A stretch of 64,000 nt of DNA from Maricaulis sp. (GTDB lineage Bacteria; Pseudomonadota; Alphaproteobacteria; Caulobacterales; Maricaulaceae): assembly GCF_017643475.1 (NCBI RefSeq), contig NZ_JAEPNI010000002.1, positions 620,001 through 684,000 of the forward strand. The letters run 5' to 3'. The notes under the pieces are model-generated. The model ran no database searches, was not told where the DNA came from, and saw nothing but the letters and a program-made list of their open reading frames with translations. Of this stretch, positions 8,404 through 50,259 are shown one piece after another (the first letter of the stretch is position 1; each line of letters begins with the position of its first letter). The position numbers and the translations under genes were made by a program.

Positions 8404-9255
8404 TTACTGGTAGACGACGTAGACAAAGGCGAACAGGAAGAGCCAGACCACGTCGACGAAGTGCCAGTACCAGGCAGCGGCCTCGAGACCGAAATGCTTC
8501 TCCGGCGTGAAATGCCCGGCCATCAGGCGCAACAGGCAGACGGCGAGGAAGATGGTACCGATGATGACGTGTGCACCGTGGAAACCGGTCGCCATGTAGA
8601 AGGTGGAACCATAGAGGTTGCCGCCATCCGCCATGGAGAAGGCGAAGTGGGCTTCCTGGTACTCGTAGACCTGCAGTGCGGTGAAGCAGAGGCCCAGGAT
8701 TACCGTGAACAACAGACCCAGCTTGGCGCCTTTGCGGTCATCGTGCTGCAGCGCGTGGTGCGCCCAGGTCACGGTGGTGCCGGAGAGCAGCAGGATGAGC
8801 GTGTTCATCAGCGGGATGTGCCACGGATCGAAAGTCTCGACACCGGCCGGCGGCCAGGTCGCGAGGCCCGGATCAAGACGCACCTCGTGGAAGATCGCGT
8901 ATTCGAAAAAGGCCCAGAACCACGCAACGAAGAACATCACTTCGGAAGCGATGAACATGATCATGCCGTAGCGCAGGTGGATATCGACAACCGGCGTGTG
9001 GTCACCCGCACGCGATTCCTTGATGACATCTGCCCACCAGCCGAACATCGTGATCAGCACGATGAGCAGGCCAATGAAGAAGCCTGCAGAGGCGTTCGGA
9101 CCGTAGAAGAAGGCCAGCGGGTGCTCGGCACCGACAAGTCCCTTCATCCAGGCGACCGCACCAACGGCCAGCAAAAAGGCGCCCAACGAGCCGAAGAACG
9201 GCCACGGGGACGGGTCCACAAGGTGGTAGTCGTGCTTAACAGCCTGCCCAGCCAT
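8404..9255 (-). CDS. ctaE: Cytochrome c oxidase subunit III
   Basis: 283 residues, seven TM helices. Signature stretches include [18 protein letters not shown] at the N-terminus, the conserved Glu in [20 protein letters not shown] and [15 protein letters not shown] near residues 210-225. Subunit III stabilises the aa3 core and influences proton uptake; it has no metal cofactor. It sits in the expected place after ctaG. The start at 9255 begins with [12 protein letters not shown], normal for the family. Confidence 0.97.
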
Positions 9256-38942: not shown

Positions 38943-39014
38943 GCCCAGCTCGCGCTTTGTACTGAATAGTTTATGGTGCGGTCTCATCTTGAGTCGTGGC
39001 TGGAGACCGCGCCC

Positions 39015-39908
39015 ATGGATTGGGACAAGCTGAAAACCTTTCACGCCGCCGCACAGGCGGGTTCGCTGACCAAGGCGGCGGAGATGCTGGGTCTGTCCCA
39101 GTCCGCTGTCAGCCGCCAGATCGCGGCACTGGAAGACGATCTGGGCGTGACCCTGTTTCACCGCCATGCCCGCGGGCTGATCCCGACAGAGCCGGGAAAT
39201 GTGCTTTACGAAGCGGCTCACGACATTGCTGCCCAGGTGGCGATTGCGGAAGCGAAGGTTCACGACACACGCGACGAACCCTCCGGTGAGCTCAAGGTCA
39301 CCGCTCCGACGGCTCTGGGCGCCATGTGGCTGGCCCCGCGCCTGAGCGAGTTTCACGACGAGTTTCCCAATATCCACATCCGCCTGATGCTGGATGACCA
39401 TGAGCTGGATCTGGCCGGGCTTGAGGCCGAAGTCGGCATCCGCCCCTGGCCCTCGACCCAGAATGACCTGGTCCAGCGCAAGCTGATGAGCGCCAGCCAA
39501 CACCTCTATGCCAGTCCGGAATACCTCGCCCAGCGTGGCGAGCCGAAAACGCCGGACGATCTGGACGAACATTCCATCATCCAGTACGGCCCGCCGCAGA
39601 TGGCACCGATCCCGGGACTGGACTGGGCGGCACGCCTGGGCCGGGACGAAAACGAAAATCCGCGTCCCGCCGTGATCGAGGTCAATACGATCTATGGCGT
39701 GGCCAAGACGGTGCAATCCGGCATGGGCATTGCTGCTCTGCCGGACTATGTGGCGCGGGAAAATCCGAATCTCAAACGCGTCCTGCCGCAGATCGACGGA
39801 CCCGATTTCGAGATCTTCTTTGTCTATCCGAGCGAGCTACGCGGCTCCCGCCGCATCGCGTCCTTCCGCGACTTCCTGATCGAACAAGCCCGTCGCTGGG
39901 ACGCCTAG
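39015..39908 (+). CDS. LysR family transcriptional regulator
   Basis: 297 residues from the ATG at 39015, GGAG upstream. N-terminal winged helix-turn-helix: [40 protein letters not shown]. The effector domain follows from residue 90 ([20 protein letters not shown]). The subgroup with [20 protein letters not shown] resembles alphaproteobacterial regulators next to aldo/keto reductases or dehydrogenases, but I cannot name the effector. It follows the aldo/keto reductase gene on the same strand and could control it. Confidence 0.92.
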
Positions 39909-41290
39909 ACCAGGCGGCGTTTCTCGATCAACGCCTCAAGCAGGCCGATCACATCGGCTGATGCGGCTTCCATCGCTTCGGCAGCCTCTTCGGCAGCCTC
40001 GCGATCACCCTGTTCATGCAACTCGGCCGCCAGCTTGCCCTGGCGGTGGAATTCGGCGTGCGGCTCGATCAGTCGCTGGAAAAGCGGGTCGCCGACAAAG
40101 GCCGGATCCTGGACAGCGTCATACCATTTGCCGAGACGACATTCATGATGATCGGCCAGGTCGCAGGCCCGGATCGTATTGCGGCCGACAAACTTCTCCG
40201 AGAGGTTCTTCTTCCACAGGAAGTGATCCGACTTGGCGCGATGGAGGACATAGTCCCGCACATCACGCTGTTCCAGATCAGCGAAACTCTCATTGACGAT
40301 TTTCTCGGACGCAGCCACGGCCTCGATCACGGCTTCGGCACGTTCGGTTGCCCTGCGGGAGGCGGTCGCGACGCCTGAGACACCACGCGACAGCTCCTGG
40401 GCCGCTCCGGTCTGCTCACTCATAAGACGGGCGATCTCGGAAACCAGATTGGACGAGCTTTGCACCAAATCAACGCCGGAACGAACGCTCGCAGCCGCAT
40501 CATCACTGGCAGACTTGCCATCCTGGATCGCGGTCATGGAACCATGAACAGCATCAATAATGCCGGTGACCTCGCTTTGCAGATTGTCGATGCGTTCCCG
40601 GATATCCCCGGTCGCCTTCTCCGTCTGGCCAGACAGCGCTTTCACCTCCTCGGCAACAACCGAGAAGCCACGCCCCGCCTCGCCGGCTCGGGCCGCCTCG
40701 ATGGTGGCGTTCAGCGCCAGCAGATTCGTCTGGCCAGCAATCGCGGAGATCGTATCGACAATATTGGTGATCTGGGCAGACGCCGCTTCGAGCTGTTCGA
40801 CCCGGCCGACAATGCTGCCATAGGCCGTCTCGATGGATTCCATCTGTTCGGCGGAATTGGAGACCTGTTCCAGGCCATGGGACGTCGCTTGCACACAATC
40901 AGACAGATTGTCAGCAGCGGTACCGGTGAAGCTGGAGATCTGCTGGATCGACGCATTCAGCTCCTCGATAGCGGAGGACATTGACTGGGCCTGCTGGTCC
41001 ACATCTCGAATATCCCCCGTGGCACGCGACACAGAGGCCATGGCGTCACTGGCATGCATGGAGAAACCAACCGAGCGCTCCAGCGTTACCTGGTCACGCG
41101 ATTCCATTGATCCATAGAGACGCGCCAAAGCCCCCGCGAGCGCGTCCGGCAAATCAGGAAGTGCCGGCTTTTCCCCCTGGGCAATCCGGTCAAGTACAAT
41201 CGCCAGCTCGTCAATCCAGTCCGGCTGAACGGTGACCACCTCGGCGGATTCGGTCATCGCTGGCCGGGACGCGCGTTTGAGCAGCATCAT
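39905..41290 (-). CDS. Soluble methyl-accepting chemotaxis protein with C-terminal CZB domain
   Basis: 461 residues with no TM segment. The long helical signalling hairpin runs from about 80 to 320, with the highly conserved tip [20 protein letters not shown] near residues 184-203 and [13 protein letters not shown] after it. The C-terminal 120 residues form a chemoreceptor zinc-binding domain: [17 protein letters not shown], then [13 protein letters not shown] with the characteristic His and Cys. CZB domains bind zinc and have been linked to sensing of oxidants such as hypochlorous acid. A cytosolic receptor is therefore expected. The stop overlaps the convergent LysR gene by four bases. Confidence 0.92.
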
Positions 41291-41377: not shown

Positions 41378-41526
41378 CAAACCAGCTACACGCGCATGGG
41401 ATTTAGAACTTGATGCCGCATTTATGCATAGCAAGTCTGCGACATCATGTCTTCTGCCGCGACGCAGCATGGGGCATATATCTCCTCACAGACGCAGCGG
41501 CGAGCCCGCAGCCTCACCAAGTTGAC

Positions 41527-41610
41527 GCATACCGAACTCCTCCCCTTAATCGGTATGCTGTTTCTGGCGCCGGTCCTTTCTCCTCCCCTTTTTGGACCGG
41601 CGCCTTTTTC
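41527..41610 (+). ncRNA. Probable cuckoo-type small RNA with two anti-Shine-Dalgarno loops
   Basis: Two consecutive hairpins. The first, GCATACCGA / TCGGTATGC (41527-41558), has a 14-base loop containing CTCCTCCCC at 41537-41545. The second, GGCGCCGGTCC / GGACCGGCGCC (41566-41604), followed by TTTTTC, is a textbook terminator and its loop holds the same nine bases at 41580-41588. Identical CCTCC-type loops on tandem hairpins, ending in a terminator, are the definition of the alphaproteobacterial cuckoo RNA family (CcsR RNAs of Rhodobacter), stress-induced Hfq-dependent regulators; here the core is CTCCTCCCC. No DUF1127 gene, the common upstream companion, is present. It lies between the minus-strand chemoreceptor and dps genes. 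The 5' end is not defined. Confidence 0.7.
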
Positions 41611-41629
41611 TTTGCCTAACTCACGAACA

Positions 41630-41660
41630 AAACCCGGCCGCTCTGGCCGGGTTCTTTTTT
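41630..41660. terminator. Bidirectional terminator between the small RNA and dps
   Basis: Stem AACCCGGCC / GGCCGGGTT around GCTCT, with A-run before and CTTTTTT after. It ends dps transcription on the minus strand and backs up the small RNA terminator on the plus strand. Confidence 0.8.
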
Positions 41661-41682: not shown

Positions 41683-42150
41683 CTAACCCAGCGTCGAGCG
41701 CAACATCCAGGCGGTTTTTTCGTGAGCGGTCAGGCGCGGGGTGAGCACGTCCGCCGTGGCTTCATCGCCGTGCTCGCCCGCCAGTTCCAGCGCCTTGCGG
41801 ATGGTGGCGACGACAACTTCATGGCCCTTGAGCAGGTCGGCGACCATTTCATCGGCACTGCTGGCACCGGCGTCAGCGTCGAGACTGGCAGCCTCATTCA
41901 TGGCGCCATAGGAGTTGGGTGCCGCAACGCCCAGCGCTCGGATCCGCTCGGCGATTTCGTCCGTCGCAGTCCACATCTCGTTATACTGCAGTTCGAACAG
42001 CGCATGCAGGTCGTGAAACCGCGGTCCGGTGACATTCCAGTGATAGACATGCGTCTTGAAATAGAGCGCATAGGTGTCCGCCAGCACTGCGGTGACAGCC
42101 TTCGCCATTTCCTGACGCTGGTTCTCGCTCAGACCCATATTGAAGCTCAT
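41683..42150 (-). CDS. dps: Dps family DNA-protecting ferritin-like protein
   Basis: 155 residues. Ferritin-like four-helix protein with the inter-subunit ferroxidase site: YHWNVTGPRFHDLHALFELQ (two His plus downstream acidic residues DLHALFE) near residues 36-55. The remainder (NEMWTATDEIAERIRALG) is the usual helix. Dps oxidises iron with hydrogen peroxide and coats DNA under starvation or oxidative stress. It has a palindromic site upstream at 42226-42241 and its own terminator. Confidence 0.95.
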   Translation of the reverse strand: MSFNMGLSENQRQEMAKAVTAVLADTYALYFKTHVYHWNVTGPRFHDLHALFELQYNEMWTATDEIAERIRALGVAAPNSYGAMNEAASLDADAGASSADEMVADLLKGHEVVVATIRKALELAGEHGDEATADVLTPRLTAHEKTAWMLRSTLG

Positions 42151-48036: not shown

Positions 48037-50259
48037 ATGACTTCACACGCACGCAACGCCGCCGGCGGCCAGGCCTGGTTCGGCCTCGTCATCGCCATAG
48101 CCACCTTTGCCGCCAGCCTGCTGCTCTGGTCTGATGCCTGGGCCGACGAGGGGCCGCAAACGCCAGATGGCATGGTTCGCCTGAGCGAGATCAATGAGGG
48201 CGCCCTCCTCCTGAAAACCATGGATCACGGCGTCTATGTCCCCGCCCCCATGATCGCCACCGATATCGAACTGGACATTTCCGGACCGGTCGTTCGCGCC
48301 ATTGTCACGCAGCGTTTCGAAAATCCCTCCGAGGCCTGGGTTGAGGGCACCTATGTTTTCCCCATGCCGGAAGACAGTGGTGTGGACCGGCTGCGCATGC
48401 AGATCGGCGACCGTTTCATCGAAGGCGAGATCCATGAGCGCCAGCAGGCCCGCCAGATCTATGAGCGCGCTCGCGAGGCCGGGCAGCGCGCCAGCCTGGT
48501 CGAACAGGAACGCCCCAACATGTTCACCACGTCCGTGGCCAATATCGGGCCGGGCGAGACCATCATCGTGCAGATCGAATACCAGGACATTGCCCGCCTG
48601 GACGACGGTCAGTTCGAAGTCCGAGTGCCGCTGGCGATCACCCCACGCTACATCCCGCAGGATGTCGGATACCTGCTCGCGTCCACAGGCTCGATGCAGA
48701 ACTCGACCGTACCTGACGCAGACCGGATTACCCCGCCTCTGATGCTGCCTGAGGGCGAACCGGAAGAAGGTCTGCGTCTGCCGGTAACCATCCGCGCTCA
48801 TCTGGATGCCGGTTTCGAACTGGGCCAGATCGCCGGCCGCTTCCACGCCACCCTGGTTCGTCACACCGCCCCGGGCGAGGCCTCCATCGAGTTGGCCAAT
48901 GGACCCATTCCGGCCGACCGGGATTTCGTGCTGACCTGGCAGCCCGCAGACCGCACGCGTCCCAGCGCTGCGCTCTTCACCGAGGAGTGGAACGGCCAGA
49001 CCTATATGCTCGCCCAGATCCTGCCGCCGGCCGAGCTGAGTGCGGACATCCCACGTCGCCCGCGCGAAACAATCTTCGTCATCGACAATTCCGGTTCCAT
49101 GGCCGGCACCTCGATGCAGCAGGCCCGGGAAGCGCTGATCTTTGCCCTGGAACGCCTGCATCCCACCGACAATTTCAATGTCATCCGTTTTGACAACACG
49201 ATGGAACAGGTCTTCCCGCAGGCCGTGCCTGCCAATTGGGAGAATGTCGGGACCGCACTGGAATTTGCCCGTGGCCTGGATGCCGAGGGCGGCACGGAAA
49301 TGTTGCCGGCACTGGTCGCAGCGCTGCGTGACGGCAATGCTGACGACACCTCCCGGGTACGCCAGATCGTCTTCCTGACCGATGGCGCCATCGGTAATGA
49401 GGCCCAGTTGTTTGAAGCTATCCATCGCGGCATGGGACGGTCCCGCCTCTTCCCGGTTGGGATCGGTTCTGCCCCCAACACCTACTTCATGAGCCGCGCC
49501 GCGCGCCTGGGCCGCGGCACCTTCACCCATATCGGTCAGGTGTCTGACGTGGCCGAGGAGATGGAAAACCTGTTCACGGCTCTGGAACGCCCGGTGATGA
49601 CCAATCTGGACGCCATCTTCCCGCAGGACGCCATCAGCGAGATCTGGCCTGCCCCGCTGCCGGACCTCTATTACGGCGAGCCTGTGGTGATGACGGCCCG
49701 GCTGAACAATCCGCAGGGCGTGATGATCCTGGAAGGCCAGACGGCAGGTGAAACCTGGCGCGAACAGCTCTCCCTGTCGGACGCCACCCAGTCCAGCGGC
49801 ATCGCCACCCTGTTTGGTCGCAACCGCATTCGCGGTATCGAGGAAACCCGTTTCCAGGGCGCGAACATGGAGCAGGTCGATGCCGGTGTTCTGCAGACCG
49901 CGCTCGACTTCCATCTTGTCTCCCGCCTGACCAGCCTGGTGGCGATCGACGCCACGCCAGCGCGACCCAGCGACGAGACGCTTGTCGCGCGTCAGACACC
50001 AAACATGATCCCGGACGGCTGGGATTTCGAGGCCGTGATGGATGACCAGGCCCTGCCCGTCCAACACGCCAGCCTGGACACCGCGCTAATCGACCAGCTG
50101 CGACCAGGTCTCGACCCCAGCCAGACCCGGCTGGATGAAAACGGCCTGCCGCTGCCCGCTACCGCGACGCCGCGTGAGCTGCTGACCTGGCTGGGCGCCC
50201 TGATGATGTTGCTGGGTCTGATCTGGCTGCTGACGCACCAGGAGCGCCGGCTGTGGTAA
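48037..50259 (+). CDS. VIT/vWA-domain marine proteobacterial sortase target protein
   Basis: 740 residues from the ATG at 48037, preceded by a near-perfect ribosome site (GGGGAGGAAG); an upstream TTG is less likely. Signal-anchor near 20-37, a VIT domain (about 55-190), then a von Willebrand A domain with an intact MIDAS, VIDNSGSMAGTSMQQA near residue 350. The C-terminal tail is LPLPATATPRELLTWLG, a TM helix and basic end: the LPxTATP-type signal used by class GN sortases. The gene overlaps the sortase gene by seven bases. A known but still poorly understood two-gene system; adhesion or surface sensing is the usual guess. Confidence 0.92.
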   Translation: MTSHARNAAGGQAWFGLVIAIATFAASLLLWSDAWADEGPQTPDGMVRLSEINEGALLLKTMDHGVYVPAPMIATDIELDISGPVVRAIVTQRFENPSEAWVEGTYVFPMPEDSGVDRLRMQIGDRFIEGEIHERQQARQIYERAREAGQRASLVEQERPNMFTTSVANIGPGETIIVQIEYQDIARLDDGQFEVRVPLAITPRYIPQDVGYLLASTGSMQNSTVPDADRITPPLMLPEGEPEEGLRLPVTIRAHLDAGFELGQIAGRFHATLVRHTAPGEASIELANGPIPADRDFVLTWQPADRTRPSAALFTEEWNGQTYMLAQILPPAELSADIPRRPRETIFVIDNSGSMAGTSMQQAREALIFALERLHPTDNFNVIRFDNTMEQVFPQAVPANWENVGTALEFARGLDAEGGTEMLPALVAALRDGNADDTSRVRQIVFLTDGAIGNEAQLFEAIHRGMGRSRLFPVGIGSAPNTYFMSRAARLGRGTFTHIGQVSDVAEEMENLFTALERPVMTNLDAIFPQDAISEIWPAPLPDLYYGEPVVMTARLNNPQGVMILEGQTAGETWREQLSLSDATQSSGIATLFGRNRIRGIEETRFQGANMEQVDAGVLQTALDFHLVSRLTSLVAIDATPARPSDETLVARQTPNMIPDGWDFEAVMDDQALPVQHASLDTALIDQLRPGLDPSQTRLDENGLPLPATATPRELLTWLGALMMLLGLIWLLTHQERRLW

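Follow-up and report, generated by a model that had tools for sequence, protein, structure and literature searches.

Small RNAs (sRNAs) with anti-Shine-Dalgarno (aSD) sequences are known in the Alphaproteobacteria as scattered, seemingly unrelated families: ar14, ar15, aR8, CcsR and SorX. This study is concerned with a predicted aSD sRNA of Maricaulis sp. in a stretch of 64,000 nucleotides (nt) of contig NZ_JAEPNI010000002.1 (the window, to which all plain coordinates refer). A first-pass annotation of this DNA had placed a cuckoo-type (CcsR) sRNA with two identical aSD loops at 41527-41610. The closest described systems are in rhizobia, in Rhodobacter and in Caulobacter. In Sinorhizobium meliloti, the regulator LsrB is reported to activate two sRNAs, AbcR1 and NfeR1, both of the aSD type. 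In Agrobacterium and Sinorhizobium, the abcR1 and abcR2 genes are described as immediate downstream neighbours of vtlR/lsrB. The S. meliloti abcR1 promoter (PabcR1) contains an LsrB box from -61 to -49 upstream of CTTGAC-N17-CTATAT, and removal of the box reduces promoter activity more than 22-fold (PMC8844928). The consensus published for the VtlR/LsrB box is GCAT-N3-TG-N3-T (PMC7486931). NfeR1 is described as activated by LsrB through an upstream box from -72 to -57 at a sigma70 promoter, and it also has an NtrC site (PMC10746234). The SisA-D sRNAs of Caulobacter crescentus are reported to base-pair with their target mRNAs ahead of the start codon and thereby repress them (PMC12559287).

The Maricaulis element is best classified, from its predicted features, as an LsrB-linked aSD sRNA that would work like NfeR1 and AbcR1, occupies the position of abcR1 and represents its own sequence family. 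It is probably a free-standing, trans-acting sRNA of the Maricaulaceae that is activated by LsrB and whose aSD loops block ribosome-binding sites, like AbcR1 and NfeR1. We infer its transcription, the binding of LsrB and its targets. The likely RNA extends beyond the interval first annotated, to approximately 41488-41610, and the presumed control region lies upstream at 41426-41480 (Table 1).

A motif search of the window located the nonamer CTCCTCCCC twice in the element, each copy in the loop of its own hairpin. Hairpin 1 has 9 pairs, and hairpin 2 has 11 pairs with TTTTT directly 3' of it. ViennaRNA folded 41520-41615 at -39.4 kcal/mol (z -8.3), which was equalled by 0 of 200 shuffles, and left both nonamers unpaired. 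These results bear out the first-pass description of two consecutive hairpins presenting the same nine bases in single-stranded loops, of a second hairpin that is also a Rho-independent terminator, and of loops complementary to ribosome-binding sites, as in ar14 and cuckoo RNAs. The general terminator scan did not list hairpin 2 because its 17-nt loop exceeds the scan maximum of 8 nt. The nonamer alone is not rare: the window contains two compared with 0.73 expected, 19 of 100 shuffles contained at least two, and the genome has 21 sites compared with 32 for a reversed control pattern. It is the closeness of the two copies that is unusual. No other two of the 21 genome sites lie on one strand within 200 nt of each other, and about 0.006 pairs within 100 nt would be expected if the sites were scattered. 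The sole other strict TTTDTGCATARC site in the genome (G000:C7:509817) is in a terminator-like stretch and is probably due to chance.

Relatives of the element were first sought by DNA similarity and by the dps neighbourhood. At E<=0.01, DNA similarity gave matches in 11 of 61 genomes, and several of the matches were unrelated stretches. An alignment of 16 homologs (A1) was used to build a covariance model (R1). Across both helices of A1, 96.7% of 275 cells were paired, and sliding the partners by 1-3 columns lowered pairing to at most 43.9%. Double-sided changes occurred in 10 of 18 pairs, with 35 such cells compared with 10.4 in shuffles, and 0 of 500 shuffles scored as high. A measure of further pair types was unexceptional, with 79 of 500 shuffles as high. 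For example, stem 1 changes from GCAUACC/GGUAUGC to GUGCGCC/GGGCGCA. The first-pass annotation had named compensatory stem changes in relatives as a check, and they were seen in both stems. It had also held that loops varying beside a conserved terminator stem would count against the sRNA; the reverse pattern was seen, with loop 1 fixed and the stems covarying. This covariation indicates that the two hairpins are a real, conserved structured RNA gene.

The alignment also bears on two other explanations. One is that the element is a mere terminator with a pyrimidine-rich loop next to a chance hairpin, which is very improbable. Terminators with C-rich loops do occur elsewhere in Maricaulis (L115-L118, L120, L123), but the conserved part of the element is hairpin 1 and not the terminator loop, both stems covary and the promoter spacing is conserved; this candidate was rejected for the covariation and the conservation of loop 1. 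The other is that the functional RNA is on the opposite strand, in the 3' untranslated region (UTR) of dps, with loops of GGGGAGGAG that could bind a CsrA-like protein. Transcription of dps on the - strand and the GGA in the - strand loops would suit such an RNA. However, all 7 wobble cells are G-U when read on the + strand and none when read on the - strand, the U-tract and promoter are on the + strand, and 8 of 37 relatives had no dps detected beside the RNA. We regard function on the - strand as extremely improbable, and it was rejected because of the wobble cells. The count of 7 G-U and 0 A-C cells, together with the U-tract, identifies the + strand as the RNA strand.

Loops were counted in 45 strong homologs, one per genome, with second copies in G010 and G242 omitted. 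Loop 1 is exactly CTCCTCCCC in 42 of the 45, including 26 of 27 from other genera. The terminator loop is exactly CTCCTCCCC in 17 of 45 (14 of 18 in Maricaulis, 3 of 27 in other genera) and has a relaxed form of the motif in 22 of 45. Thus, the two identical loops of the first-pass annotation are present in the window and are mainly a Maricaulis feature. The aSD motif also occurs in the 5' region of some relatives, as CTCCTCCCC in G032 and G070 and as CCCCTCCTCCCCC in G030, and CTCCCC is found there in several Maricaulis homologs; at the RNA level, the 5' hairpin of some relatives contains CUCCCC or CUCCUCCCC. The homologs thus point to a single nearly invariant loop, loop 1, and to extra loops that come and go. 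One Maricaulis genome has a tandem duplicate of the sRNA (G010:C187:8292-8369 and 8558-8636; L111, L114) in which the terminator loops have diverged.

Of the 19 Maricaulis genomes, 18 contained the sRNA by the R1 model (E<=2.2e-7), while the remaining one (G012, 65% complete) gave only a weak, unlike match. Within the family, 26 of 59 genomes matched at E<=1.8e-5 and 33 of 59 at E<=0.1. Of 299 genomes of the order, 42 matched at E<=0.001, 36 of them inside the family, and 4 of 385 class genomes matched, the genome of the window included. This leaves six matches outside the family in the order set and three in the class set. Three of the six order matches were inspected (G204, G110, G253), and none had the two-loop plan. 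As a sequence family, the sRNA is therefore essentially confined to the Maricaulaceae, the GTDB family of the window. The three class matches were inspected as well; one of them, L319 (G475:C1:1226411-1226492; E 5e-5), from outside the order, looks cuckoo-like, with several CUCC-rich hairpins. Terminators with CUCCC- or CCCCCC-rich loops at unrelated Maricaulis loci (L115-L118, L120, L007 and L123, the last at G000:C7:267915) gave weak R1 matches of E 1e-4 to 0.05.

Membership of the described families was examined with the Rfam models. The first-pass annotation had assigned the element to the cuckoo family, of CcsR type. Its architecture agrees: two hairpins carry CUCCUCCCC in the loop, the reported cuckoo motif being CCUCCUCCC, and as in CcsR1-4 the aSD loops are in consecutive hairpins. 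The membership itself was not supported. The CcsR1 model (RF02791) gave 23.7 bits (E 0.0011) compared with a cut-off of 65.3, the homologs reaching 32.5-36.4 at best, and the ar14 model (RF02344) gave 35.7 bits (E 3.5e-5, 41492-41608) compared with a cut-off of 58.8, the best homolog reaching 40.1. In addition, CcsR1-4 are described as processing products of a transcript that carries the DUF1127 gene ccaF1 and has an RpoHI/RpoHII promoter (PMC10253847), unlike the sigma70-plus-LsrB-box-like promoter here. The annotation was correct that a DUF1127 gene is missing: none was detected in the whole genome (PF06568, E<=0.001), in a search where of 14 controls only E. coli matched. Cuckoo/CcsR and ar14 membership were rejected for these sub-threshold scores and the missing gene. 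It is nevertheless worth weighing whether the element is a true cuckoo/CcsR (CIN1) or ar14 member whose DUF1127 partner was lost and whose sequence has diverged, which we judge unlikely. The two sub-threshold matches, similar in several homologs, and the activation by LsrB of NfeR1, the ar14 founder, fit such a history. However, every match is under its curated cut-off, the third, 5' hairpin of the window has no aSD loop although ar14 has three aSD hairpins, most homologs outside Maricaulis have one aSD hairpin, and short C-rich loops may originate independently. Thus, "cuckoo" fits how the sRNA probably works, not a family to which it has been shown to belong.

The other families compare as follows. 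NfeR1, like the predicted Maricaulis sRNA, is about 123 nt long and has an aSD nonamer in its loops while the stems differ (PMC10746234); unlike it, NfeR1 is described with CCUCCUCCC in all three hairpins, whereas CUCCUCCCC occurs here in two. AbcR1 (ar15) of Agrobacterium and Sinorhizobium shares the position behind LsrB, the box, the sigma70 promoter and aSD pairing (PMC8844928), the box, the promoter and the pairing being predicted here. Unlike AbcR1, the sRNA has no ar15 match (RF02345, cut-off 40 bits) among the Rfam matches of the window at E<=10; an ar15 search of 142 class genomes gave no match anywhere, controls included, and so carries no weight. In other Alphaproteobacteria, SorX-like RNAs are encoded downstream of LsrB-type genes, as the Maricaulis sRNA is, but SorX of Rhodobacter sphaeroides is described as the processed 3' UTR of RSP_0847, called OmpR-like, and SorX (RF02784) was also absent from the Rfam matches of the window at E<=10. 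The SisA-D RNAs (aR8), from the same GTDB order, belong to the same aSD class of sRNAs; they differ in presenting a single-stranded UUUCCUCCCU stretch after a weak hairpin and in lying at another locus (PMC12559287). The aR8/MmgR model (RF00519) gave 12.5 bits in the window compared with a cut-off of 41, and no match in its genome at E<=0.001. A near-threshold aR8/MmgR match elsewhere (L108, G013:C29:116150-116235; 33.8 bits compared with 41) overlaps an sRNA homolog. Among the titles listed for the open-licence literature, none concerned a Maricaulis sRNA, and no paper there included both SorX and AbcR1; a mention in PMC4615179, which defined the cuckoo RNAs, is possible.

The promoter region was compared in 44 homologs, with L138 left out because it is at a contig edge. 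The hexamer CATATA is common to the homologs upstream of the sRNA, and in 38 of the 44, GCAT precedes by 48-49 nt a -10 that matches in five or more of its 6 positions (49 nt in 36 and 48 nt in 2). The next most common distances were 57 nt (9 loci) and 47 nt (6 loci), and in some loci the distance of 57 reflects a second GCAT standing 8 nt upstream. GCAT begins at -61 if the -10 is taken to end at -7. In the free columns of the 38 boxes, C was found at position 7 in 38, G at position 9 in 34 and T at position 13 in 36; at the three further consensus positions, 15 boxes are complete, 18 depart at one and 5 at two. The promoter looks like a sigma70 promoter plus an LsrB box.

The presumed activator is encoded beside the sRNA. 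Compared with solved chains, the protein at 38973-39908 matched A. tumefaciens LsrB (9hh1, PMC11975290) at E 1.4e-82, the next chain being at 4.4e-29, and in the aligned DNA-reading region it is close to LSQSAISRQVSALEQDVGV of the comparison. Of 37 sRNA-bearing relatives, 30 have the sRNA, like abcR1, behind an LsrB/VtlR-type gene of the same strand, within 130-220 nt in 23 of the 30, and this gene is the directly upstream neighbour in most relatives. A chemoreceptor gene intervenes in the window and in four relatives (G001, G002, G006, G008) and was not found there in the other 33. Since it is on the opposite strand, the RNA in these genomes is not a product of the LsrB 3' UTR. The first-pass annotation described the element as alone between a chemoreceptor and dps; both neighbours were identified (PF00015 with CZB; Dps/ferritin-like), but "alone" overlooks the LsrB-type gene beyond the chemoreceptor.

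Several observations weigh against activation by LsrB and blocking of ribosome-binding sites. First, GCAT itself and the 17-nt spacer were conditions of the spacing count and not results. Secondly, the box of the window, GCATAGCAAGTCT, is degenerate and has no TG, placing it among the five that miss two positions; this makes it less likely that LsrB controls the RNA tightly in this particular strain. Third, a generic consensus promoter scan of the window found no site here. Fourth, the regulator of the window has no cysteine, as is also the case for 17 of 30 regulators of relatives in the aligned part that was compared. A. tumefaciens LsrB is described as a redox sensor with a thiol switch (PMC11975290); this switch cannot apply to regulators without cysteine, and a redox signal should not be assumed. 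Lastly, none of the 19 genome sites outside the sRNA that carry the full nonamer complement is at a convincing gene start: at L305, GGGGAGGAG is 6 nt before an ATG whose frame has 12 codons, and L309 has doubtful GTG frames only. Real targets would thus use shorter or imperfect pairing. The VIT/VWA-domain protein gene at 48037 (+, 740 amino acids), with GGGGAGGA before its ATG and complementarity to eight loop bases, is a possible target, as a single example without statistics.

Some of these points also suit a real aSD-loop sRNA outside LsrB control, whose box-like element would serve another regulator or none in this strain; this is unlikely. Besides the degenerate box of the window, 7 of 37 relatives (L126-L130, L133, L141) have no LsrB-type gene in the stretch examined, up to 8 kb on each side. 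In all seven, GCAT nevertheless still stands 48-49 nt before the -10, an arrangement that favours regulation in trans. The element agrees with the published box in its position, its spacing and its free columns, and the regulator gene is beside the RNA in the 30 remaining relatives.

Under the preferred explanation, an LsrB-activated aSD sRNA, the adjacent LsrB/VtlR-type LysR regulator would bind the box near -61 and activate the sigma70-type promoter. An RNA of about 123 nt would be produced, beginning with a weak hairpin at its 5' end that is followed by two strong ones, the latter shown by both folding and covariation. Each strong hairpin would offer CUCCUCCCC in its loop, and the second would end transcription. 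The loops would then pair with G-rich ribosome-binding sites, exclude ribosomes and lower the translation of several genes, as suggested by the loop complementarity and by reports on SisA (PMC12559287), NfeR1 (PMC10746234) and AbcR1/2 (PMC8844928). The global regulator of the first-pass annotation is a putative role. The loop of hairpin 1 appears to be under the strongest selection, and further loops may be optional and give redundancy.

Table 1. Predicted features of the sRNA locus, with window coordinates.
Feature	Position	Strand	Basis
LsrB/VtlR-type LysR regulator gene, 311-amino-acid frame, presumed activator	38973..39908	+	Pfam LysR_substrate, HTH_1
Chemoreceptor (MCP) gene between LsrB-type gene and sRNA; not considered part of the functional unit	39905..41290	-	Pfam PF00015 and CZB
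LsrB-box-like element GCATAGCAAGTCT, degenerate GCAT-N3-TG-N3-T	41426..41438	+	GCAT 49 nt before -10; published consensus
-35-like hexamer TTCTGC	41452..41457	+	17 nt before -10; 32 of 38 homologous promoters begin TT here, 6 TGG
-10-like hexamer CATATA	41475..41480	+	aligned in homologs; absent from consensus scan list
Predicted sRNA, about 123 nt	41488..41610	+	start inferred from -10, end from terminator; R1 match 41526-41611, E 2.0e-12
Weak 5' hairpin, no aSD motif	41494..41512	+	ViennaRNA fold
Hairpin 1, aSD loop CTCCTCCCC at 41537-41545	41527..41558	+	fold, covariation; loop counts in text
Hairpin 2, aSD loop CTCCTCCCC at 41580-41588; Rho-independent terminator, U-tract 41605-41609	41566..41604	+	fold, covariation; loop counts in text
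Further terminator-like hairpin, separating sRNA from dps; may end dps transcription	41631..41653		terminator scan
Dps/ferritin-like gene, convergent neighbour	41683..42150	-	PF00210; 29 of 37 relatives have it downstream on the opposite strand

The analysis was extended to LsrB-type genes beyond the family. At E<=1e-40, 71 of 120 genomes of the order contained such genes, and at E<=1e-60, 165 of 289 genomes of the class did, with one copy in most. A section heading of PMC11975290, based on a small tree, calls LsrB a LysR-type transcriptional regulator unique to Rhizobiales, while PMC7486931 states that VtlR/LsrB is present in many Alphaproteobacteria. Judged by these protein matches, the spread conflicts with the Rhizobiales-only heading and fits the latter statement. 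Sixty-nine class loci that ranked near the top in LsrB score were taken, and L246 was dropped for want of downstream DNA, leaving 68. Within 620 nt downstream of LsrB, CCTCCCTGT was found in sense at 37 loci and in antisense at 0, CTCCCAGACG at 30 and 0, and the looser CCTCC at 55 and 15. Upstream of LsrB, at 28 loci, CCTCCCTGT and CTCCCAGACG were each found at 0 and CCTCC at 3. A script requiring a terminator plus the aSD motif at fixed coordinates scored 38 of 69 loci positive and 0 in antisense, and missed several visible cases. Among L228-L296, an RNA-like block of ACGTCTCCCAGACGTGAAGCCTCCCTGTT followed by a terminator is widespread downstream of LsrB-type genes on the LsrB strand, and L265 and L287 have two or three tandem copies of the block.

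A promoter matrix trained solely on the family was applied to 84 other-family loci. The mean scores were -6.0 in sense and -14.9 in antisense (Wilcoxon p 1e-7), and 23 sense scores were above every antisense score, with most sense scores still low. A clear match to the family-type promoter thus seems to be present in about a quarter of these loci. At a relaxed Rfam threshold, 12 of 20 loci gave matches resembling SorX on the LsrB strand (E 2.4e-7 to 0.033), none of which reached the cut-off, and some loci of this set also had weak SorY or aR8 matches. At the curated threshold, another 20 loci gave one match at the SorX cut-off (L240) and nothing else. The R1 model was applied to 39 of 85 LsrB-adjacent loci, most of them chosen because an aSD RNA showed; its best match in 99 kb had an E of 0.0033, and 18 of 20 matches with E<=1 coincided, as read by eye, with the RNA downstream of LsrB and had the orientation of LsrB. 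For these distant RNAs the R1 match is too weak to show descent; what they appear to share is position, promoter logic and the aSD motif.

These results allow a broader proposal, which is tentative and which we hold with less than even confidence. An LsrB-type gene and an aSD sRNA under an LsrB box may be an ancient locus kept across much of the Alphaproteobacteria, in which the RNA has been repeatedly rebuilt. The AbcR RNAs of Rhizobiales, the SorX-like RNAs and the Maricaulaceae RNAs would then be positional orthologs that differ in the number and place of their aSD loops. If this is true, the redox-sensing rhizobial LsrB and the cysteine-free LsrB of Maricaulis would drive the same translational brake in response to different signals, and LsrB-type proteins without redox cysteines are predicted to sense something else.

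The occurrence beyond the Rhizobiales of an aSD sRNA that takes the place of AbcR and has an LsrB-box-like element at the published distance suggests that the link between LsrB and aSD RNAs may predate the named families. The question of which RNA is the RNA of LsrB thus becomes answerable genome by genome. For Maricaulis, the sRNA may be a master switch for many genes, run by a regulator that has been studied mainly in plant-associated relatives.
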